Assembly: GCA_016931955.1 (NCBI GenBank)
Contig: JAFGDV010000036.1
Coordinates: 1 to 45,205 of the forward strand
DNA: 45,205 nt
DNA from: Candidatus Altarchaeota archaeon
GTDB taxonomy: Archaea; Altiarchaeota; Altiarchaeia; IMC4; QMZM01
Direction: 5' to 3'
Each line of letters starts with the position of its first letter. Positions within the stretch are counted from its first letter, which is position 1. The notes under the pieces are model-generated. The model worked only from the letters and a program-made list of their open reading frames with translations. It was not told the origin of the DNA and did no database searches. The translations under genes were made by a program, and so were the position numbers. Positions 14,547 to 45,205 of this stretch are shown piece after piece.

Positions 14547-14933
14547 TTATTTTAAGCCCTTGCTCACCGCCTTCATTATGTCTGAGTTAGACACCATGCC
14601 GACGAGCTTGTTCCCCTCCATCACAGGGAACCTCCTTATATCGGTCTTAGCCATCAACCGAGCCACCGTTTCTATGCTCGCATCAGGTGACACACTAAGT
14701 ATCGGCTCGGACATGACCTCAGAAACCAACGTAGCCTTAATGTCTTTATCATAGGCTATTACCTTATTCACTATGTCCTTCCGTGTTATGATCCCATAGA
14801 CACTGTTTTTTCCTTTGTCTTCAATGACTAAGCTGGTTATCTGTTCTTCAACCATCTTATTCATCGCATCCAAGATGGTAGCATCTAGGTCTATTGATAT
14901 CACATTCTTTCGCATGATATCTCTGACATTCAT
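14547..14933 (-). CDS. CBS-pair protein 2 of a tandem array
   Basis: The 128-residue CBS pair starts MNVRDIMRKNVISIDLDATIL. Its second motif (EPILSVSPDASIETVARLMAKTDIRRFPVMEG, then KLVGMVSNSDIMKA) is almost identical to that of the next paralogue, and the DNA is identical for 75 bp (14568-14642 versus 14963-15037). Both CBS motifs carry the nucleotide-binding T/S-x-x-D residues. An AGGT site precedes the ATG. It lies 9 nt downstream of paralogue 1. Confidence 0.92.
   Translation of the reverse strand: MNVRDIMRKNVISIDLDATILDAMNKMVEEQITSLVIEDKGKNSVYGIITRKDIVNKVIAYDKDIKATLVSEVMSEPILSVSPDASIETVARLMAKTDIRRFPVMEGNKLVGMVSNSDIMKAVSKGLK
14568..14642. repeat. 75-bp exact direct repeat, copy A
   Basis: This stretch in CBS gene 2 is identical to 14963-15037 in CBS gene 1, 395 bp away. 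It covers the C-terminal half of the second CBS motif. The flanks diverge quickly, which fits recent duplication or gene conversion. Confidence 0.9.
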
Positions 14934-14941
14934 TTTGATAC

Positions 14942-15328
14942 CTACATGTTCTCCAAGGCTATCGCCTTCATTATGTCTGAGTTAGACACCATGCCGACGA
15001 GCTTGTTCCCCTCCATCACAGGGAACCTCCTTATATCAGTTTTAGCCATCAACCGGGCTATTGTTTCCACACTCATCTCCGGCGATATGGTCATCAACGG
15101 CTCGGACATGACCTCAGAAACCTTGACCTTGTTCGGGTCCTTGTTGTAGGCTATTACTTTATTGACTACGTCCTTGCGTGTCACTATCCCGTAGACTCCA
15201 TGCTCTCCCTCTTTCTCGACTATCAGGCTGGTCACCCGCCTATCAACCATCTTCTTCATCGCATCCATGACAGAAGCATCCTTACTGATTGTCATAATAC
15301 CCCGGGTCATAATCTCATTAGCATCCAT
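14942..15328 (-). CDS. CBS-pair protein 1 of a tandem array
   Basis: The 128-residue CBS pair starts MDANEIMTRGIMTISKDASVMDAMKKMVDRR. It has the linker GVYGIVTRKDVVNKVIAY and a second motif EPLMTISPEMSVETIARLMAKTDIRRFPVMEG. A GAGGTGATC Shine-Dalgarno region lies just before the ATG. A TATA-like box at 15366-15376 on the minus strand indicates it heads the three-CBS transcript. Stand-alone CBS pairs usually sense adenylates; the effector partner is unknown. Confidence 0.92.
   Translation of the reverse strand: MDANEIMTRGIMTISKDASVMDAMKKMVDRRVTSLIVEKEGEHGVYGIVTRKDVVNKVIAYNKDPNKVKVSEVMSEPLMTISPEMSVETIARLMAKTDIRRFPVMEGNKLVGMVSNSDIMKAIALENM
14963..15037. repeat. 75-bp exact direct repeat, copy B
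   Basis: This is the partner of 14568-14642, at the same position in the paralogous CBS gene. Confidence 0.9.
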
Positions 15329-38301: not shown

Positions 38302-38709
38302 ATGTTAAAGACGAAACAAGAGACTAAAACACAAAAAAAGGCAAGCAACGGCAGACTCCTCCCGCAGAGACAGCTTAAGGACATAAAAAAGGAGGTTGGA
38401 GAGGATACGAAGGCCCTTCTCTTGGCTGCGAAAACCTCCTTGGGGGAAAAACCTGCTGGGATGAAGCAGATATCCTTAAGAGACCTAGAGGAACCCCAAG
38501 AAAAACCAACCAACGTTGAAGCTACAGAATCAGAGATCATAAACGTTAAAAGCATCCCTGACAGGGGTTCATTAATCGAAGTCAGGGACTTCAATGAACT
38601 GAGGAAGGTGGGTAAGGCTTTTAGGTTCATAAACTGCTACGAAGACGAAAAACAGAGGGTGTATTTTGTAGGCGACTATTTTTATAGGGTAGACAAGAAG
38701 CTGCGATGA
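38302..38709 (+). CDS. Hypothetical protein with charged N terminus
   Basis: The 135-residue product has a Lys/Gln-rich disordered N-terminal half (about 1-85) and a compact C-terminal half with IEVRDFNELRKVGKAFRFI and VYFVGDYFYRVDKKLR. No membrane segment or signal peptide is seen. CTTTTATTTAC centred 28 nt before the ATG fits a leaderless transcript. Its stop overlaps the next ATG by 4 bp. Family not recognised. Confidence 0.65.
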   Translation: MLKTKQETKTQKKASNGRLLPQRQLKDIKKEVGEDTKALLLAAKTSLGEKPAGMKQISLRDLEEPQEKPTNVEATESEIINVKSIPDRGSLIEVRDFNELRKVGKAFRFINCYEDEKQRVYFVGDYFYRVDKKLR

Positions 38710-39170
38710 AAAACAAGGTGCTGGTTGGGGGATTAATCCTCCTCTTATCATTGAACACAGGATGCGTTGGCATGGAGGGACTCCAGGATTTCTTGGGTGG
38801 GGGGAAACCGGCTGAAACAACCACGACCACATATAGTTCAACTTCGTCCACGACGACCTTGACCGATGAAACGACCACAACCTCCACTTCAACCTCTACC
38901 TCGACGTCGACTTCTACTTCTACTACTTCGACCACCTTCATGTATGTTAAATGCGAACGCCAGTGGGGTCAAAAAGCTAGGGATGAATGCTACCGCGACC
39001 TTGCATTGGAGAGGAAGAACCCAGAGATATGCTTCCTAGTGCAATTGAAGAGCTTCCGAGACAACTGCTTCCACAGCGTGGCATTGGAAACCAAAGACAC
39101 TGCACTCTGCAACTACGTCATGGACAACATCCAACGAGAGCGCTGCTACACCTACACACAACAAGAATAG
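38706..39170 (+). CDS. Lipoprotein with Thr linker and Cys repeats
   Basis: The 154-residue product has a lipoprotein signal (Cys20), a Thr/Ser-rich linker (about 38-76) and a helical Cys-repeat domain, with units like ARDECYRDLALERKNPEIC, FRDNCFHSVALETKDTALC and RERCYTY. The repeat (RD-x-CY-x2-LA-x4-N/D-x2-xC) resembles the C-terminal lipoprotein at 44659. Such helical Cys repeats occur in several archaeal lineages; their function is unknown. It overlaps the preceding gene by 4 bp. Confidence 0.75.
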   Translation: MKNKVLVGGLILLLSLNTGCVGMEGLQDFLGGGKPAETTTTTYSSTSSTTTLTDETTTTSTSTSTSTSTSTSTTSTTFMYVKCERQWGQKARDECYRDLALERKNPEICFLVQLKSFRDNCFHSVALETKDTALCNYVMDNIQRERCYTYTQQE

Positions 39171-39176
39171 CTGTAG

Positions 39177-42100
39177 TCAAGAGGCTGTGCTGCGACTATT
39201 CTTTCTTCTTTTCAATAAGAGTAATACTAGTATGACGACCAATAGCAGGGCTGCGACCAAGATAAGGTTTAGGTCAAAGCCCCCTACTATAGATTCTCTC
39301 TTCGGCGTCTCATCAGCCGCAATCCGCTGCCTGATTTCCTCAGGGAGCTCAGGTCTGTCGTCGAAAGACATGTTCTGCAGGCGTTCAGGCGACCAGTCTC
39401 CTGTCTCTTCTACATCGGAGACCTTATTATCATCTATGTCGACCGACTCACAGTATGGGTCAGTCCAATTCACCTCTTCACAGTAGTTCCAGACCGCCGG
39501 CCCGAGGTCTACGGTAACCATAAGCTCACCTGTTGAGCCGTTGAATATGTTAAGCCATCTCACTCCGCTGTGCATGGGCACGACCAGCGTGAACATTGTG
39601 TCCTCCGAGAATACTCGGACTGGGCTGCCTTCTGAGTCTGCCATGGTGACCCTCGGGTCTGAGAACGTGAATCTGTCAATCTCTCTCCCTTCTGCGGACG
39701 CCGTCAAACCGACGAAGTCTGTCATCCACATCCCAAGGTCAGGGTGGTTGGGAACTACTCTTGACATTATTCCCCTCATCTTCCCCTGCCTGAATTCGAC
39801 GTAGCTTATTATCCCCTTTGAGCCGCCGCTCGGCCAGTTAGAGAAGACGTGGTTTATCCGTCTGACGTCGGCTTCCTTGAAGACTGAGTCTGCTGCGTTA
39901 GCCCGCATGACGTCGCTTCTCGGCGTGTCGCTGTCGTACCTGTACTTGTCTTTCGAGCAGGTGACTGTGCCGTTTTCGTCGACGTTCCTTATCTGCCTGC
40001 ATGTTCCATTAGTCCAACCCTCTGAGGCTGCTGTGTTCATGCAGTCGCTCAGCGAATTCCATATGTTTGGCTTAGTGCCCGCCCTGCTGTACGCTGTGTC
40101 GCCGCAGTATTCGTCAGTGAGTCCCAAGAGCGAGTGACCGAACTCGTGTATTATCACCGCACCCTGGTTTTGGTACTCCGACTGGAAGTGAGATGTTGGC
40201 CCGAATCCTGAGCATCCTCGTATGTCTGGGTTGGTGTATATTATTCCTGCAGAGTCTGCGAAGGACGCATGTTCCCAGAAGTGGTCTGGCTCGTATGCAA
40301 AGCATCCGCAGCCGAAGCCCAATGTCAGGGCGCAGGTGAACGAGCAGGCGTAGACCCAGTCGTGGTAGGCTTTTTCTCCTGGCAGCCAGCCTTTGCAGCC
40401 GATGCATAGGTAACCTTCAGGGCCTTCGGGGTCGTAGCAGCTGTCGGCGTCGCTGGTGGCGTCTCCTTTTCCGCCCCTGTAGAGGTAGAAGTTGAACATG
40501 TCTTCGTAGCCTGCGTGTATAGGCCTGATCGATATGGCGTCGAGTTCCAAGAACCGGGCTCTTATCGCCTCCTTTATGCGGGCTTCGAAGCCGGTCCAGT
40601 TGCTGCCCCAGTCTTCTTCCGGCACGAAGACCACGTCAATGTATCCGTCGTTGGGTCTGCCTTTTATCCTCAACGGCACTATCTTTGAGTCGCACCAAGT
40701 GCATTCCACACATTCACTGCATTTTCCGCCGCAGTCTATGCCAAGTTCGCCAAATCCTTGATACAGGTCAGCGCAGTCGCATGCGTCGTCTACGCCGTCG
40801 CCGTCTATGTCGTCGACTGCTGGAGAGCAACACTGACTGCAGCCTTTGGTGCCTTCGTCGCTCCAGCCCGGGGATCTGCTGCATATGTTGTCTCTTCCGG
40901 TGTTGTCTGTGCCCTGATTGTGGACGTCATTTGAGTTGTTGCATACCGTGTTCTCCTCAAGGCGGTTTCTGTTGCTCGTCGGGTCTATGTAGATCCCTCC
41001 CCCAGTGTCCCTTATCGTGTTCCCTCTTATCGTGTTTTCGTCTGATGACTCCTCCACTGTTATGCCCTTGACCGACGCTGGGCCATTGCCTCCGGTTATC
41101 GTGTTGCCTTCGAGGGTGTTGGAATCCGACATATAAAATTGTATTCCTGCTATCTCATAGTCTGTTATCTCGCCTACATCCTTGACGAGGGTGCCGCTTG
41201 ACAGGTATATGTACACCCCCCTGTCGCATCCCCTCAGATTGCCCTGCTCTACCAAGGTGTCGCTGCTTTTCTCGACCGAGATGCAGTCCCTCTCCAGGTC
41301 AGTCACCTGACCGCTTATGAGTCTAATGTCGGTTGAATTGATGACTGCTATCCCATGATAGGCTTCTCTGACGCTTGGGTTTGTGAATTCGACGTTCCTT
41401 GAATCCATTACAATTATTCCATCAGAATTTGTCCCACTGTTGTCTACCTCGACTCCTGAGAACGTTGAATCCCGTACATTACATAGTATCAGTTCACTGT
41501 ATCTCCTGTCTGCCGGATATGCTATGTTAAGCCCACTTGTATCGTGGTAGTAGCCTATTTTCCGGCCGCCGCTGCCTTTATTTGATTCAGGTATGCTGTT
41601 ATCGCATCTTGCGTTCGTGTACAATGAGTACTGTCTTCCTTCGATTTCGTTTGTAGTGAACTTGTTGTCCCAGACGCCGCCTTCCAAGTAGACGCCATAT
41701 ACATCATTCGGCACTATCGTGTTATCGCTGACGTTGTTGCTCCTCGACGGCATGTATCCGCCCCTCATCACGAGCCCATAATCATTGTTTCTTATTCCAT
41801 TGAAGAAGAGCCTGCTGTGTGATGCCCCATCCATCAGCACACCCGTCCCATAGTTTTCTACGCCACAGTCCCGCAGCTCCACGTTCACTTTGTTCTTTAT
41901 TTCAACTCCGACTCCGCTGCCTGAGCCAGTTATCCAGTGGCCGTCGCAGTCCAGCGTCACGTGGCTTGCTCCGAAGGAGAGGCCGTCAGGTGAGTTGATG
42001 CTTCTTGTGAGCGTGATTGTCCCATAGTCTCCTGACGAGAGCGCGTCCCTGAGCCCAGAGGATGAGCTTACCGACGTCATGGCGTCTGCAGTGCATGTGG

Positions 42101-43073
42101 TCTCACACCATGTCACATCAGAATCTGAGTTCCAGTTGTAGATGAGGTCGCAGATGTTTTCTCTCAATGTGTTCCCACTAGACTTCGCGTAGGGGCTCGT
42201 GTAGATGTCTGCCACCGTGTTCCTGCAGAGCCTGTTTTCCTCGATCCTCGTGTTCTTGTTGCCTGCTAGGTAGACGCCTTCCTGGTTTTCGGTTATCGTG
42301 TTCTTCAGCAGCCTGTTGCCGTCTGAGCCGTCCGCTACCTCCCCTGTCGCATTATTTAGTCTCCCCCCGCCGAGCCAGATTCCTGCTGCATTCTCTCTGA
42401 TGGTGTTGTTCTCGATGAGGCTGTTTTTCGCGGAATATGCTGCTATCCCCGCCTCGAATCCCTCTATGGTACAGTTCCGTATCGTGTTACCGGAGCCGCG
42501 CAGGTCTACTCCGTAGTAGAATTCCAGTCCTACGCCGAAGCCGCTGATCTTATGGCCTTGACAGTCTAATACTACGTTACTAGCATCGAAGAGGATGCAT
42601 GTCCCTGTAGTGCTTGACAGGTCTCGTCCTACTTTAACCTCTGTCTTTCCACCCTTAATCTCGTCTGTGCAGCTTTTACATGAGGTGCAGCCAATCTCGG
42701 CTGGTGGTCTTACCACATAGGACAGCGTCGTCGTTGGGGTGCTTAATCTTGCTGTGGTCGTGGTCGTCGTCGCCTTTCCTCCCTCCATGAAACAGTACTT
42801 CGGCGTCATTATGAGGGCCACCGCAGTCTGCGAGGTATAGTAGCCGCAGACTTCTTTGCTGCATTTCACGGGGTTCTTGTATGAGTTCTTCGCCTGCGCT
42901 TCAGTCATGCACTCGCAGCCGCCCGAGCATTTGATGAGCGTCGTAGTAGTGGTCGTGGTCGTCGTCACTATCGGGATGAACGTGATCTTCGGAGTCGTTA
43001 TGAACGGATACTGTGCGCACACAAAAGAGACGAACAAAAGAATAACAACTGCTGAGAGAATCTTCTTATCCAA
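39177..43073 (-). CDS. Anchored beta-helix protein with M64-type metalloprotease
   Basis: The 1298-residue product has a signal peptide (about 1-20), a Thr stretch (about 37-45) and a Cys-rich region, then two right-handed parallel beta-helix regions (about 130-330 and 340-745) with repeated N-x-I/V-x-N-T-I motifs. A DDIDGDGVDDAC calcium-type segment follows. The protease domain (about 815-1080) has HEFGHSLLGLTDEY (H976, E977, H980), the M64 signature. A C-terminal membrane helix (about 1268-1287) ends in a basic tail. It is probably a cell-surface glycan-binding or glycan-processing protease. The start is TTG at 43073, with a GGTGA site. Confidence 0.85.
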   Translation of the reverse strand: MDKKILSAVVILLFVSFVCAQYPFITTPKITFIPIVTTTTTTTTTLIKCSGGCECMTEAQAKNSYKNPVKCSKEVCGYYTSQTAVALIMTPKYCFMEGGKATTTTTTARLSTPTTTLSYVVRPPAEIGCTSCKSCTDEIKGGKTEVKVGRDLSSTTGTCILFDASNVVLDCQGHKISGFGVGLEFYYGVDLRGSGNTIRNCTIEGFEAGIAAYSAKNSLIENNTIRENAAGIWLGGGRLNNATGEVADGSDGNRLLKNTITENQEGVYLAGNKNTRIEENRLCRNTVADIYTSPYAKSSGNTLRENICDLIYNWNSDSDVTWCETTCTADAMTSVSSSSGLRDALSSGDYGTITLTRSINSPDGLSFGASHVTLDCDGHWITGSGSGVGVEIKNKVNVELRDCGVENYGTGVLMDGASHSRLFFNGIRNNDYGLVMRGGYMPSRSNNVSDNTIVPNDVYGVYLEGGVWDNKFTTNEIEGRQYSLYTNARCDNSIPESNKGSGGRKIGYYHDTSGLNIAYPADRRYSELILCNVRDSTFSGVEVDNSGTNSDGIIVMDSRNVEFTNPSVREAYHGIAVINSTDIRLISGQVTDLERDCISVEKSSDTLVEQGNLRGCDRGVYIYLSSGTLVKDVGEITDYEIAGIQFYMSDSNTLEGNTITGGNGPASVKGITVEESSDENTIRGNTIRDTGGGIYIDPTSNRNRLEENTVCNNSNDVHNQGTDNTGRDNICSRSPGWSDEGTKGCSQCCSPAVDDIDGDGVDDACDCADLYQGFGELGIDCGGKCSECVECTWCDSKIVPLRIKGRPNDGYIDVVFVPEEDWGSNWTGFEARIKEAIRARFLELDAISIRPIHAGYEDMFNFYLYRGGKGDATSDADSCYDPEGPEGYLCIGCKGWLPGEKAYHDWVYACSFTCALTLGFGCGCFAYEPDHFWEHASFADSAGIIYTNPDIRGCSGFGPTSHFQSEYQNQGAVIIHEFGHSLLGLTDEYCGDTAYSRAGTKPNIWNSLSDCMNTAASEGWTNGTCRQIRNVDENGTVTCSKDKYRYDSDTPRSDVMRANAADSVFKEADVRRINHVFSNWPSGGSKGIISYVEFRQGKMRGIMSRVVPNHPDLGMWMTDFVGLTASAEGREIDRFTFSDPRVTMADSEGSPVRVFSEDTMFTLVVPMHSGVRWLNIFNGSTGELMVTVDLGPAVWNYCEEVNWTDPYCESVDIDDNKVSDVEETGDWSPERLQNMSFDDRPELPEEIRQRIAADETPKRESIVGGFDLNLILVAALLLVVILVLLLLKRRKNSRSTAS

Positions 43074-44323: not shown

Positions 44324-44658
44324 ATGGGATAAAATAAGCCCTATTTAGCCTTCTTTTACGATTTAGAAGCTAATTTAGGCTTTATTTACGTTTTACAGAA
44401 TCCTCCTGTTTCTAAAACAGGATTCACATGTTTCCCTGTTTATCTAACAAAGGCTGTTTAAAGCCCCGTACCCCAAGTTACACCCTAATAACAACCTGAT
44501 CTAATTACAGAGGATGTTAGGGATAAAATTATAGTGAATTCAGCATAAAATAATAACTTAAAGCTTGCGGGGGATAAGATTCGAAGATGAAATTTACATG
44601 AGGGCCTATGTCTAAAACATATTTAGGTTATGGGGCTTATATATTATCCATGGCTTCG
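44324..44658. other. Non-coding region with hairpins
   Basis: No gene is seen between the tRNA and the next lipoprotein. A long imperfect inverted repeat spans about 44330-44393 (AAATAAGCC versus GGCTTTATTT, with CTTCT/AGAAG at its top). GAATCCT-TGTT pairs with AACAGGATTC at about 44399-44426. The partial tRNA copy is at 44560-44585. CTTATATATT at 44637-44646 is a promoter candidate. Confidence 0.5.
44560..44585. repeat. Partial tRNA-Leu 3' end, copy B
   Basis: This is a second copy of the tRNA acceptor end and T-loop segment (AGCTTGCGGGGG, then GATTCGAA) with no tRNA body attached. It could be an att-like footprint or a decayed tRNA. Confidence 0.7.
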
Positions 44659-45205
44659 ATGAGAAGTTTTTTAGTTTTGTTTATGGTGATAGCAATCTCA
44701 TTTCTTAGTGGATGTTCTTTTTGGAACAAAATCGAAGCCCAACAAATTGTCGAATGCCCTGAATGCGACTTAAATCAACACCCAAATGCACAACATCAAT
44801 GCATGATTCCCTGCATGAAAAAATGCCTTGAATTCGAGACTGCGGCAACCACATATCATAAAAGCATCGAAAAAGGAGAGGTCAAATGTGTATGCCATTG
44901 CCAATCAGACGCTATAGATGAACTAAACCTGGCCAAAGCAGTAATCAACAAAGACGAATCCTACTGTGAGAAAATCCCAACCACCGAAGGAACAGCTAAA
45001 AGAGACTACTGTTACATCTATGTTGCAGGAGAAAAAGTCGAAGGGGGATTATGCGAAAAAATCACTGCAAGGTCAGGAGCTAACTCAAAAGACATGTGTT
45101 ATGTGAATCTGGCAATACAAACAAAAAACATCACATTATGTGATAAAATAATTACTGAATCAGGTTACAACTCAAAAGATGCCTGCTTCCTACTATTAGC
45201 ACAGA
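44659..45205 (+). CDS. Cys-repeat lipoprotein, 3' end beyond window
   Basis: The reading frame runs off the window without a stop. It encodes at least 182 residues, with a lipoprotein signal ending SFLSGC (Cys19) and a Cys-rich segment (ECPECDL, QCMIPCMKKC, KCVCHC). Helical Cys repeats follow: KRDYCYIYVA, SKDMCYVNLAIQTKNITLC, SKDACFLLLA. The repeat is the same type as in the lipoprotein at 38706. ATGs at 44650 and 44608 are in frame; 44659 is best for the lipobox length. The gene is A/T-richer than most in the window. Confidence 0.7.
   Translation, partial: MRSFLVLFMVIAISFLSGCSFWNKIEAQQIVECPECDLNQHPNAQHQCMIPCMKKCLEFETAATTYHKSIEKGEVKCVCHCQSDAIDELNLAKAVINKDESYCEKIPTTEGTAKRDYCYIYVAGEKVEGGLCEKITARSGANSKDMCYVNLAIQTKNITLCDKIITESGYNSKDACFLLLAQ

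Follow-up and report, generated by a model that had tools for sequence, protein, structure and literature searches.

A predicted membrane-tethered M64-type metallopeptidase of an Altiarchaeota archaeon as a probable fused form of an archaeal protease–partner gene pair

What might be the role of an archaeal protein in which beta-helices, a zinc-protease motif and a C-terminal membrane helix follow one another in a single chain, and how was such a chain put together? The gene occupies positions 39177..43073 on the minus strand of the window, the 45,205-nucleotide stretch of DNA analyzed here, and all parts of the protein located below lie on that strand. It is an open frame encoding 1298 aa that starts with TTG, shortly 5' of which stands GGTGA, a ribosome-binding-like motif. 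The surface-protein elements listed in the preliminary description of this DNA are recovered by hydropathy and inspection. A signal peptide spans residues 1–20 (43014..43073; Kyte-Doolittle windows of ~1.9–2.1 from residue 1) and is followed by threonine-rich linkers at residues 37–107 (42753..42965), with nine threonines at 37–45 and six at 102–107. The segment DIDGDGVDDACDC / GIDCGGKCSECVECTWC, residues 750–794 (40692..40826), is of calcium and cysteine type, as judged from its sequence and from relatives that carry TSP_3 before M64, and includes DIDGDGVDD at residue 755. A membrane helix at residues ~1268–1290 (39204..39272; Kyte-Doolittle up to 3.36) is succeeded by KRRK. The two predicted beta-helix regions also hold up, both through strong Pfam scores and through a motif that marks the start of each module. 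The first, at residues ~150–325 (42099..42626), has its best PF13229 Beta_helix stretch at 174–320 (125 bits against a cut-off of 25.9, E=2.7e-36) and LDCQGH at 169; the second, at residues ~345–745 (40839..42041), has its best PF05048 NosD stretch at 542–723 (136.7 against 23.6 bits, E=9.7e-40) and LDCDGH at 374, the limits of both regions being approximate. AlphaFold models of the beta-helix part (pLDDT 40.9) and of the protease with the domain that follows it (pLDDT 36.5) are of low confidence, most likely because the alignments were too shallow. Small secreted cysteine-rich proteins flank the gene region (window 38706-39170 and 44608-45204), one threonine-rich and lipoprotein-like, the other with SGxxSKDxCYxxLAxxTKN-type repeats. 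Elsewhere the window encodes CBS-domain proteins in tandem, each 128 aa long (14547-15328); it also has genes for an A/V-type ATPase and a deoxyhypusine synthase, which agree with an archaeal origin.

Does the HExxH-bearing region belong to the M64 family? Taken alone, the window protein scores below the Pfam cut-off for M64 (PF09471; 21.6 against 26 bits, E=1.3e-4), and its best pairwise match to a solved structure is to the M64 protein 3p1v at E=0.3. Several of its relatives pass the PF09471 gathering score. Among archaeal profiles, the window protein being included in the one matched to solved structures, a five-sequence version reached 3p1v at E=6.8e-13 and a twelve-sequence version aligned with the whole domain of 3p1v at E=1.6e-22, with 4df9 at 9e-21 and with the Thomasclavelia ramosa IgA protease (IgAse) at 3e-11. 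On this basis the domain is placed at residues 800–1083 (39825..40676). The zinc motif HEFGHSLLGLTDEY, residues 976–989 (40107..40148), reads H976-E977-x-x-H980-xxx-G984-xx-D987-E988-Y989, and its H, E, H, D and Y are invariant in all twelve aligned archaeal sequences, the window protein and 11 relatives. Igalysins are defined by HExxHxxxGxxD with aspartate as third zinc ligand (PMC12237041), and the window motif has this form, including the added residue before the glycine. In IgAse the motif is HExxHxxxGxxDEY with the same extra residue, D550 is the third ligand, Y552 is a possible tyrosine switch and the Met-turn is C606-I-M608-R (PMC12237041). D987 aligns with D550 and is thus the expected third ligand, as the preliminary description had suspected; Y989 and M1056 are present too, the latter in a Met-turn, D1054-V-M1056-R (39903..39914), recognized by alignment with archaeal relatives. 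Motif, Met-turn and profile matches together argue that the proposed M64-type HExxH metalloprotease was correctly recognized.

A second, structural zinc site, composed of a glutamate and three cysteines, is seen in IgAse (E551, C606, C616, C619; PMC12237041) and BF3526 (E323, C398, C409, C412; PMC12402451) and is not what classifies M64. In the window protein E988 is kept and the three cysteine positions are occupied by D1054, K1066 and D1069, so that an aspartate stands in the Met-turn where a structural-zinc cysteine is expected. A loss peculiar to this protein was considered and rejected, as the cysteines are absent in 8 of the 12 archaeal sequences (the window protein and seven others) and retained in G010, G011, G018 and G022. 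The nearest catalytic domain is that of G066, from another archaeal phylum, with 35% identity and a tree support of 0.96.

The origin of the C-terminal part is disclosed by relatives, in which it is a separate protein. Residues 1084–1210 are homologous to small downstream genes of relatives (pairwise E=2e-5 and 9e-8), and a profile of this partner family, which contains the window sequence, matches the domain at 2.8e-40; the partner domain proper is set at residues 1084–1200 (39474..39824). Since the partner is its own gene behind the protease in other archaea, the window protein is a protease–partner fusion; as judged by homology, its last 215 residues represent a copy of the downstream protein that has become part of the same chain. 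Two further fusions bring the number to three: one in G548 (L096:1584-3617), with the zincin at 392 and the partner at 479–586, and one in G616 (L103:103-3351), with the zincin at 633, the partner at 777–831 and an end that appears dockerin-like. The window junction has no hydrophobic signal segment, yet the membrane helix of the partner is kept. The fusion is thus not merely a missed stop codon, and a sequencing error or lost stop was rejected on the same ground.

How regular is this pairing? Among 45 partner copies examined, 40 lie directly behind a zincin gene and three are fused, across five archaeal phyla, adjacency being judged by the succession of ORFs in genomes that are fragmentary. 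The adjacent pairs are distributed as four in the phylum of the window, one in a second, five in a third, 29 in a fourth and one in a fifth. In each of the four relatives from the window's own phylum, the gene immediately 3' of the protease gene is small and encodes a protein that starts with a signal peptide. A survey of 29 genomes of that phylum found M64 in five, and strong partner matches in the same five, one of them cut by a contig end; weaker matches fall mostly in the threonine-rich linker and C-terminal part, and full-length matches occur only where M64 is present. The pair in G066, a 972-aa protease and a 184-aa partner with a membrane helix, is encoded by genes that overlap by 8 bases. 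The phylum of G058 contributed five loci with the pair and that of G054 thirteen, one of the latter behind a degenerate zincin; the pair was also found in G642. A partner-profile search of the G054 phylum added further copies, sixteen of them behind more divergent HExxH zincins, along with the fusions of G548 and G616. One copy, in G552, follows another copy in tandem, and one in G054 has no adjoining zincin. No partner was found with the M64 genes of G564 and G622, so the partner is not needed in every case. A profile search gave no confident family member in 390 genomes of another phylum, and relatives were absent from the viral contigs scanned and from the plasmids searched with the window protein; a search of genome contigs returned one ordinary bacterial M64. 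Among the papers retrieved from a partial collection, none describes the pair as far as titles and abstracts show.

Separate partners have a signal peptide and a beta-rich domain, and most of the complete ones end in a membrane helix, although G087 has a partner in which no clear terminal helix is seen. The M64 proteases at L049, L050 and L051 begin with a pilin-like segment, GQAFDxFKLLI..., in place of an ordinary signal peptide. G608 (L071:4641-5999) has a second, degenerate M64-like gene with QEITH for HExxH and a partner gene of its own 3' to it.

What is the beta-rich domain itself? Pfam, including the bacterial M64_N family (PF16217), identified no family in the 19 partner members tested. 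Comparison of alignments by hhalign, the E-values of which refer to single comparisons, relates a 22-sequence partner alignment to M64_N with a probability of 86.6% and E=4.5e-6 over 89 columns. The M64_N side comprised residues of PDB 4df9 and 3p1v, a Krumholzibacteriia protein and four plasmid-borne Bacteroidota proteins. The real score was 35.6, and none of 100 column-shuffled controls exceeded 17.3. With deep alignments the probability ranged over 83-87%, whereas shallower ones gave weak values of 0.3-36%, and the control domains PKD, CARDB, Big_2, CarboxypepD_reg and another archaeal Ig-like domain remained at or below 0.7%. The partner profile did not retrieve M64_N from PDB sequences, and the partner sequence compared directly with PDB gave chance matches only. 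Homology between the partner and M64_N is likely from these comparisons, and in the window protein the M64_N-like domain has apparently exchanged an N-terminal place for a C-terminal one relative to the protease. The N-terminal sandwich of BF3526 may limit access to the active site (PMC12402451), and the C-terminal sandwich of IgAse, the wrapping domain, belongs to the minimal functional assembly (PMC12237041). The partner of archaea would correspond to such a domain, split off into a gene of its own.

The partner might instead be a mere membrane anchor or docking stub with no catalytic role, its likeness to M64_N being that of any beta-sandwich. This would agree with the membrane helix that ends most complete partners and with the want of a convincing Pfam match in any member. 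However, the proteases of G036 and G093 have their own pilin-like N-terminal membrane helix and are paired nonetheless, so that anchoring alone seems insufficient; the G087 partner, moreover, lacks a clear membrane helix, and unrelated beta-sandwich controls score below 1%. We regard this explanation as unlikely.

We propose that the window protein is a surface, membrane-tethered M64-type zinc endopeptidase in which a protease–partner unit, made from two genes in other archaea, has been fused, a reading that we hold to be probable from the sequence comparisons. In most relatives the protease, encoded by the first gene of the unit, would be secreted or held by a pilin-like anchor, and its outer module varies, be it a beta-helix, TSP3, PKD or lysozyme-like domain; the second gene, often overlapping the first by a few bases, would supply an M64_N-related, beta-rich partner with its own signal peptide. 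By analogy with the sandwich of BF3526 or the wrapping domain of IgAse, the most likely place of the partner is against the catalytic domain, where it may keep the protease in an active shape or restrict access to the cleft, and it would also tie the enzyme to the membrane. In the window protein the helix, partner domain and protease would lie near the membrane, with the calcium/cysteine segment and the two beta-helices extending outward. The beta-helices may bind glycans or act as a spacer toward glycans or a neighboring surface, and the enzyme would cleave extracellular proteins or glycoproteins. On a broader scale, the balance of the evidence tilts slightly toward the view that at least five archaeal phyla use a two-subunit surface metallopeptidase, composed of an M64-like zincin and a dedicated M64_N-like subunit, in most cases anchored in the membrane, whose gene comes next. 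On this view the window protein would be among the three fusions detected, in which a domain N-terminal in bacterial M64 enzymes was brought to the C-terminal side by a permutation that passed through a split-gene stage.

The host or biofilm glycoproteins and the S-layer of the cell itself that the preliminary description proposed may each serve as substrate. The outer modules differ among relatives. Beta-helix and M64 also co-occur in G552, G555 and G556/G557 (G556 counted through its near-identical partner, only the others having been scanned), with the helix on the opposite side. Homologues that combine the two domains thus exist, as the preliminary description had suggested looking for, and the combination is not unique to the window. 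G018, G022 and G066 have TSP3 (TSP_3) repeats ahead of M64. The 1402-aa protein of G011 (L008:5132-9340), apparently an exoprotein with several enzyme activities, unites M64 with a GH-like DUF6298/collagen-binding part, PKD domains and a lysozyme-like domain of SLT type. The small archaeon G564 (L079:782-4054) has a protein that combines NlpC/P60-like, M64-like and M23 peptidase domains with a lysozyme-like C-terminus and resembles an enzyme for the degradation of walls. The M64 enzymes of the family might accordingly be directed mainly at bacterial walls or competitors rather than glycoproteins, the outer modules choosing the target: fusions with lysozyme-like SLT domains are seen in G011 and in the M64 protein of G509, and one with M23 and NlpC/P60 in G564. 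In the window protein, however, the outer modules are beta-helices and a wall-lytic domain is absent, and we give this alternative little credence. That the M64 domain is an inactive, non-proteolytic zincin-like binding module in what is chiefly a beta-helix adhesin is highly improbable, for although the structural-zinc cysteines are gone and the G608 paralogue has degenerated, the catalytic residues, third ligand, tyrosine and Met-turn are all retained, as in 11 aligned relatives.

What are the implications of a surface endopeptidase assembled in this way? To our knowledge, the characterized M64 enzymes come from gut bacteria. They are medically interesting, and what they cut seems to depend on their extra domains. 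The natural split into two genes, together with three fusions, offers a direct handle on the role of the access or anchor domain. It points to a widespread and uncharacterized group of surface proteases in archaea, the outer modules of which are exchangeable and which are possibly involved in the contacts of small archaea with other cells. The earlier statement that M64 domains are known mainly from bacteria needs amending, for M64 is not rare in archaea: members of the family occur in five archaeal phyla among the genomes searched, and M64 proteins with signal peptides had already been listed for Nanohaloarchaeota (PMC9563170).

How does the window protein compare with known systems? IgAse (ThomasA), itself an M64 enzyme, shares HExxHxxxGxxDEY with the aspartate ligand and the Met-turn, and is likewise secreted, membrane-anchored and multidomain; its wrapping domain, a beta-sandwich after the catalytic domain, is likened to the partner by its place in the chain. 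Unlike the window protein, it retains the structural zinc of a glutamate and three cysteines, carries a lectin-like domain at the N terminus and lacks a beta-helix. The G066 protease also lacks structural-zinc cysteines but differs in its unfused partner and in having TSP3 instead of beta-helices. Right-handed beta-helix repeats are common to NosD (TIGR04247) and the window protein; identity as the NosD copper protein was rejected, the TIGR04247 score being 85 bits against a cut-off of 300. The N-terminal metalloprotease of CLCA proteins (PF08434) has the same HExxHxxxGxxDEY consensus (PMC3650047) and matches the window protein at E=0.16; a VWA domain was not found in the latter. BF3526 and BACOVA_00663 (4df9, 3p1v; PF16217 + PF09471) combine M64 with a small beta-sandwich that is profile-related to the partner, and the sandwich is N-terminal in these two, C-terminal in the window protein and a separate protein in most archaeal relatives.
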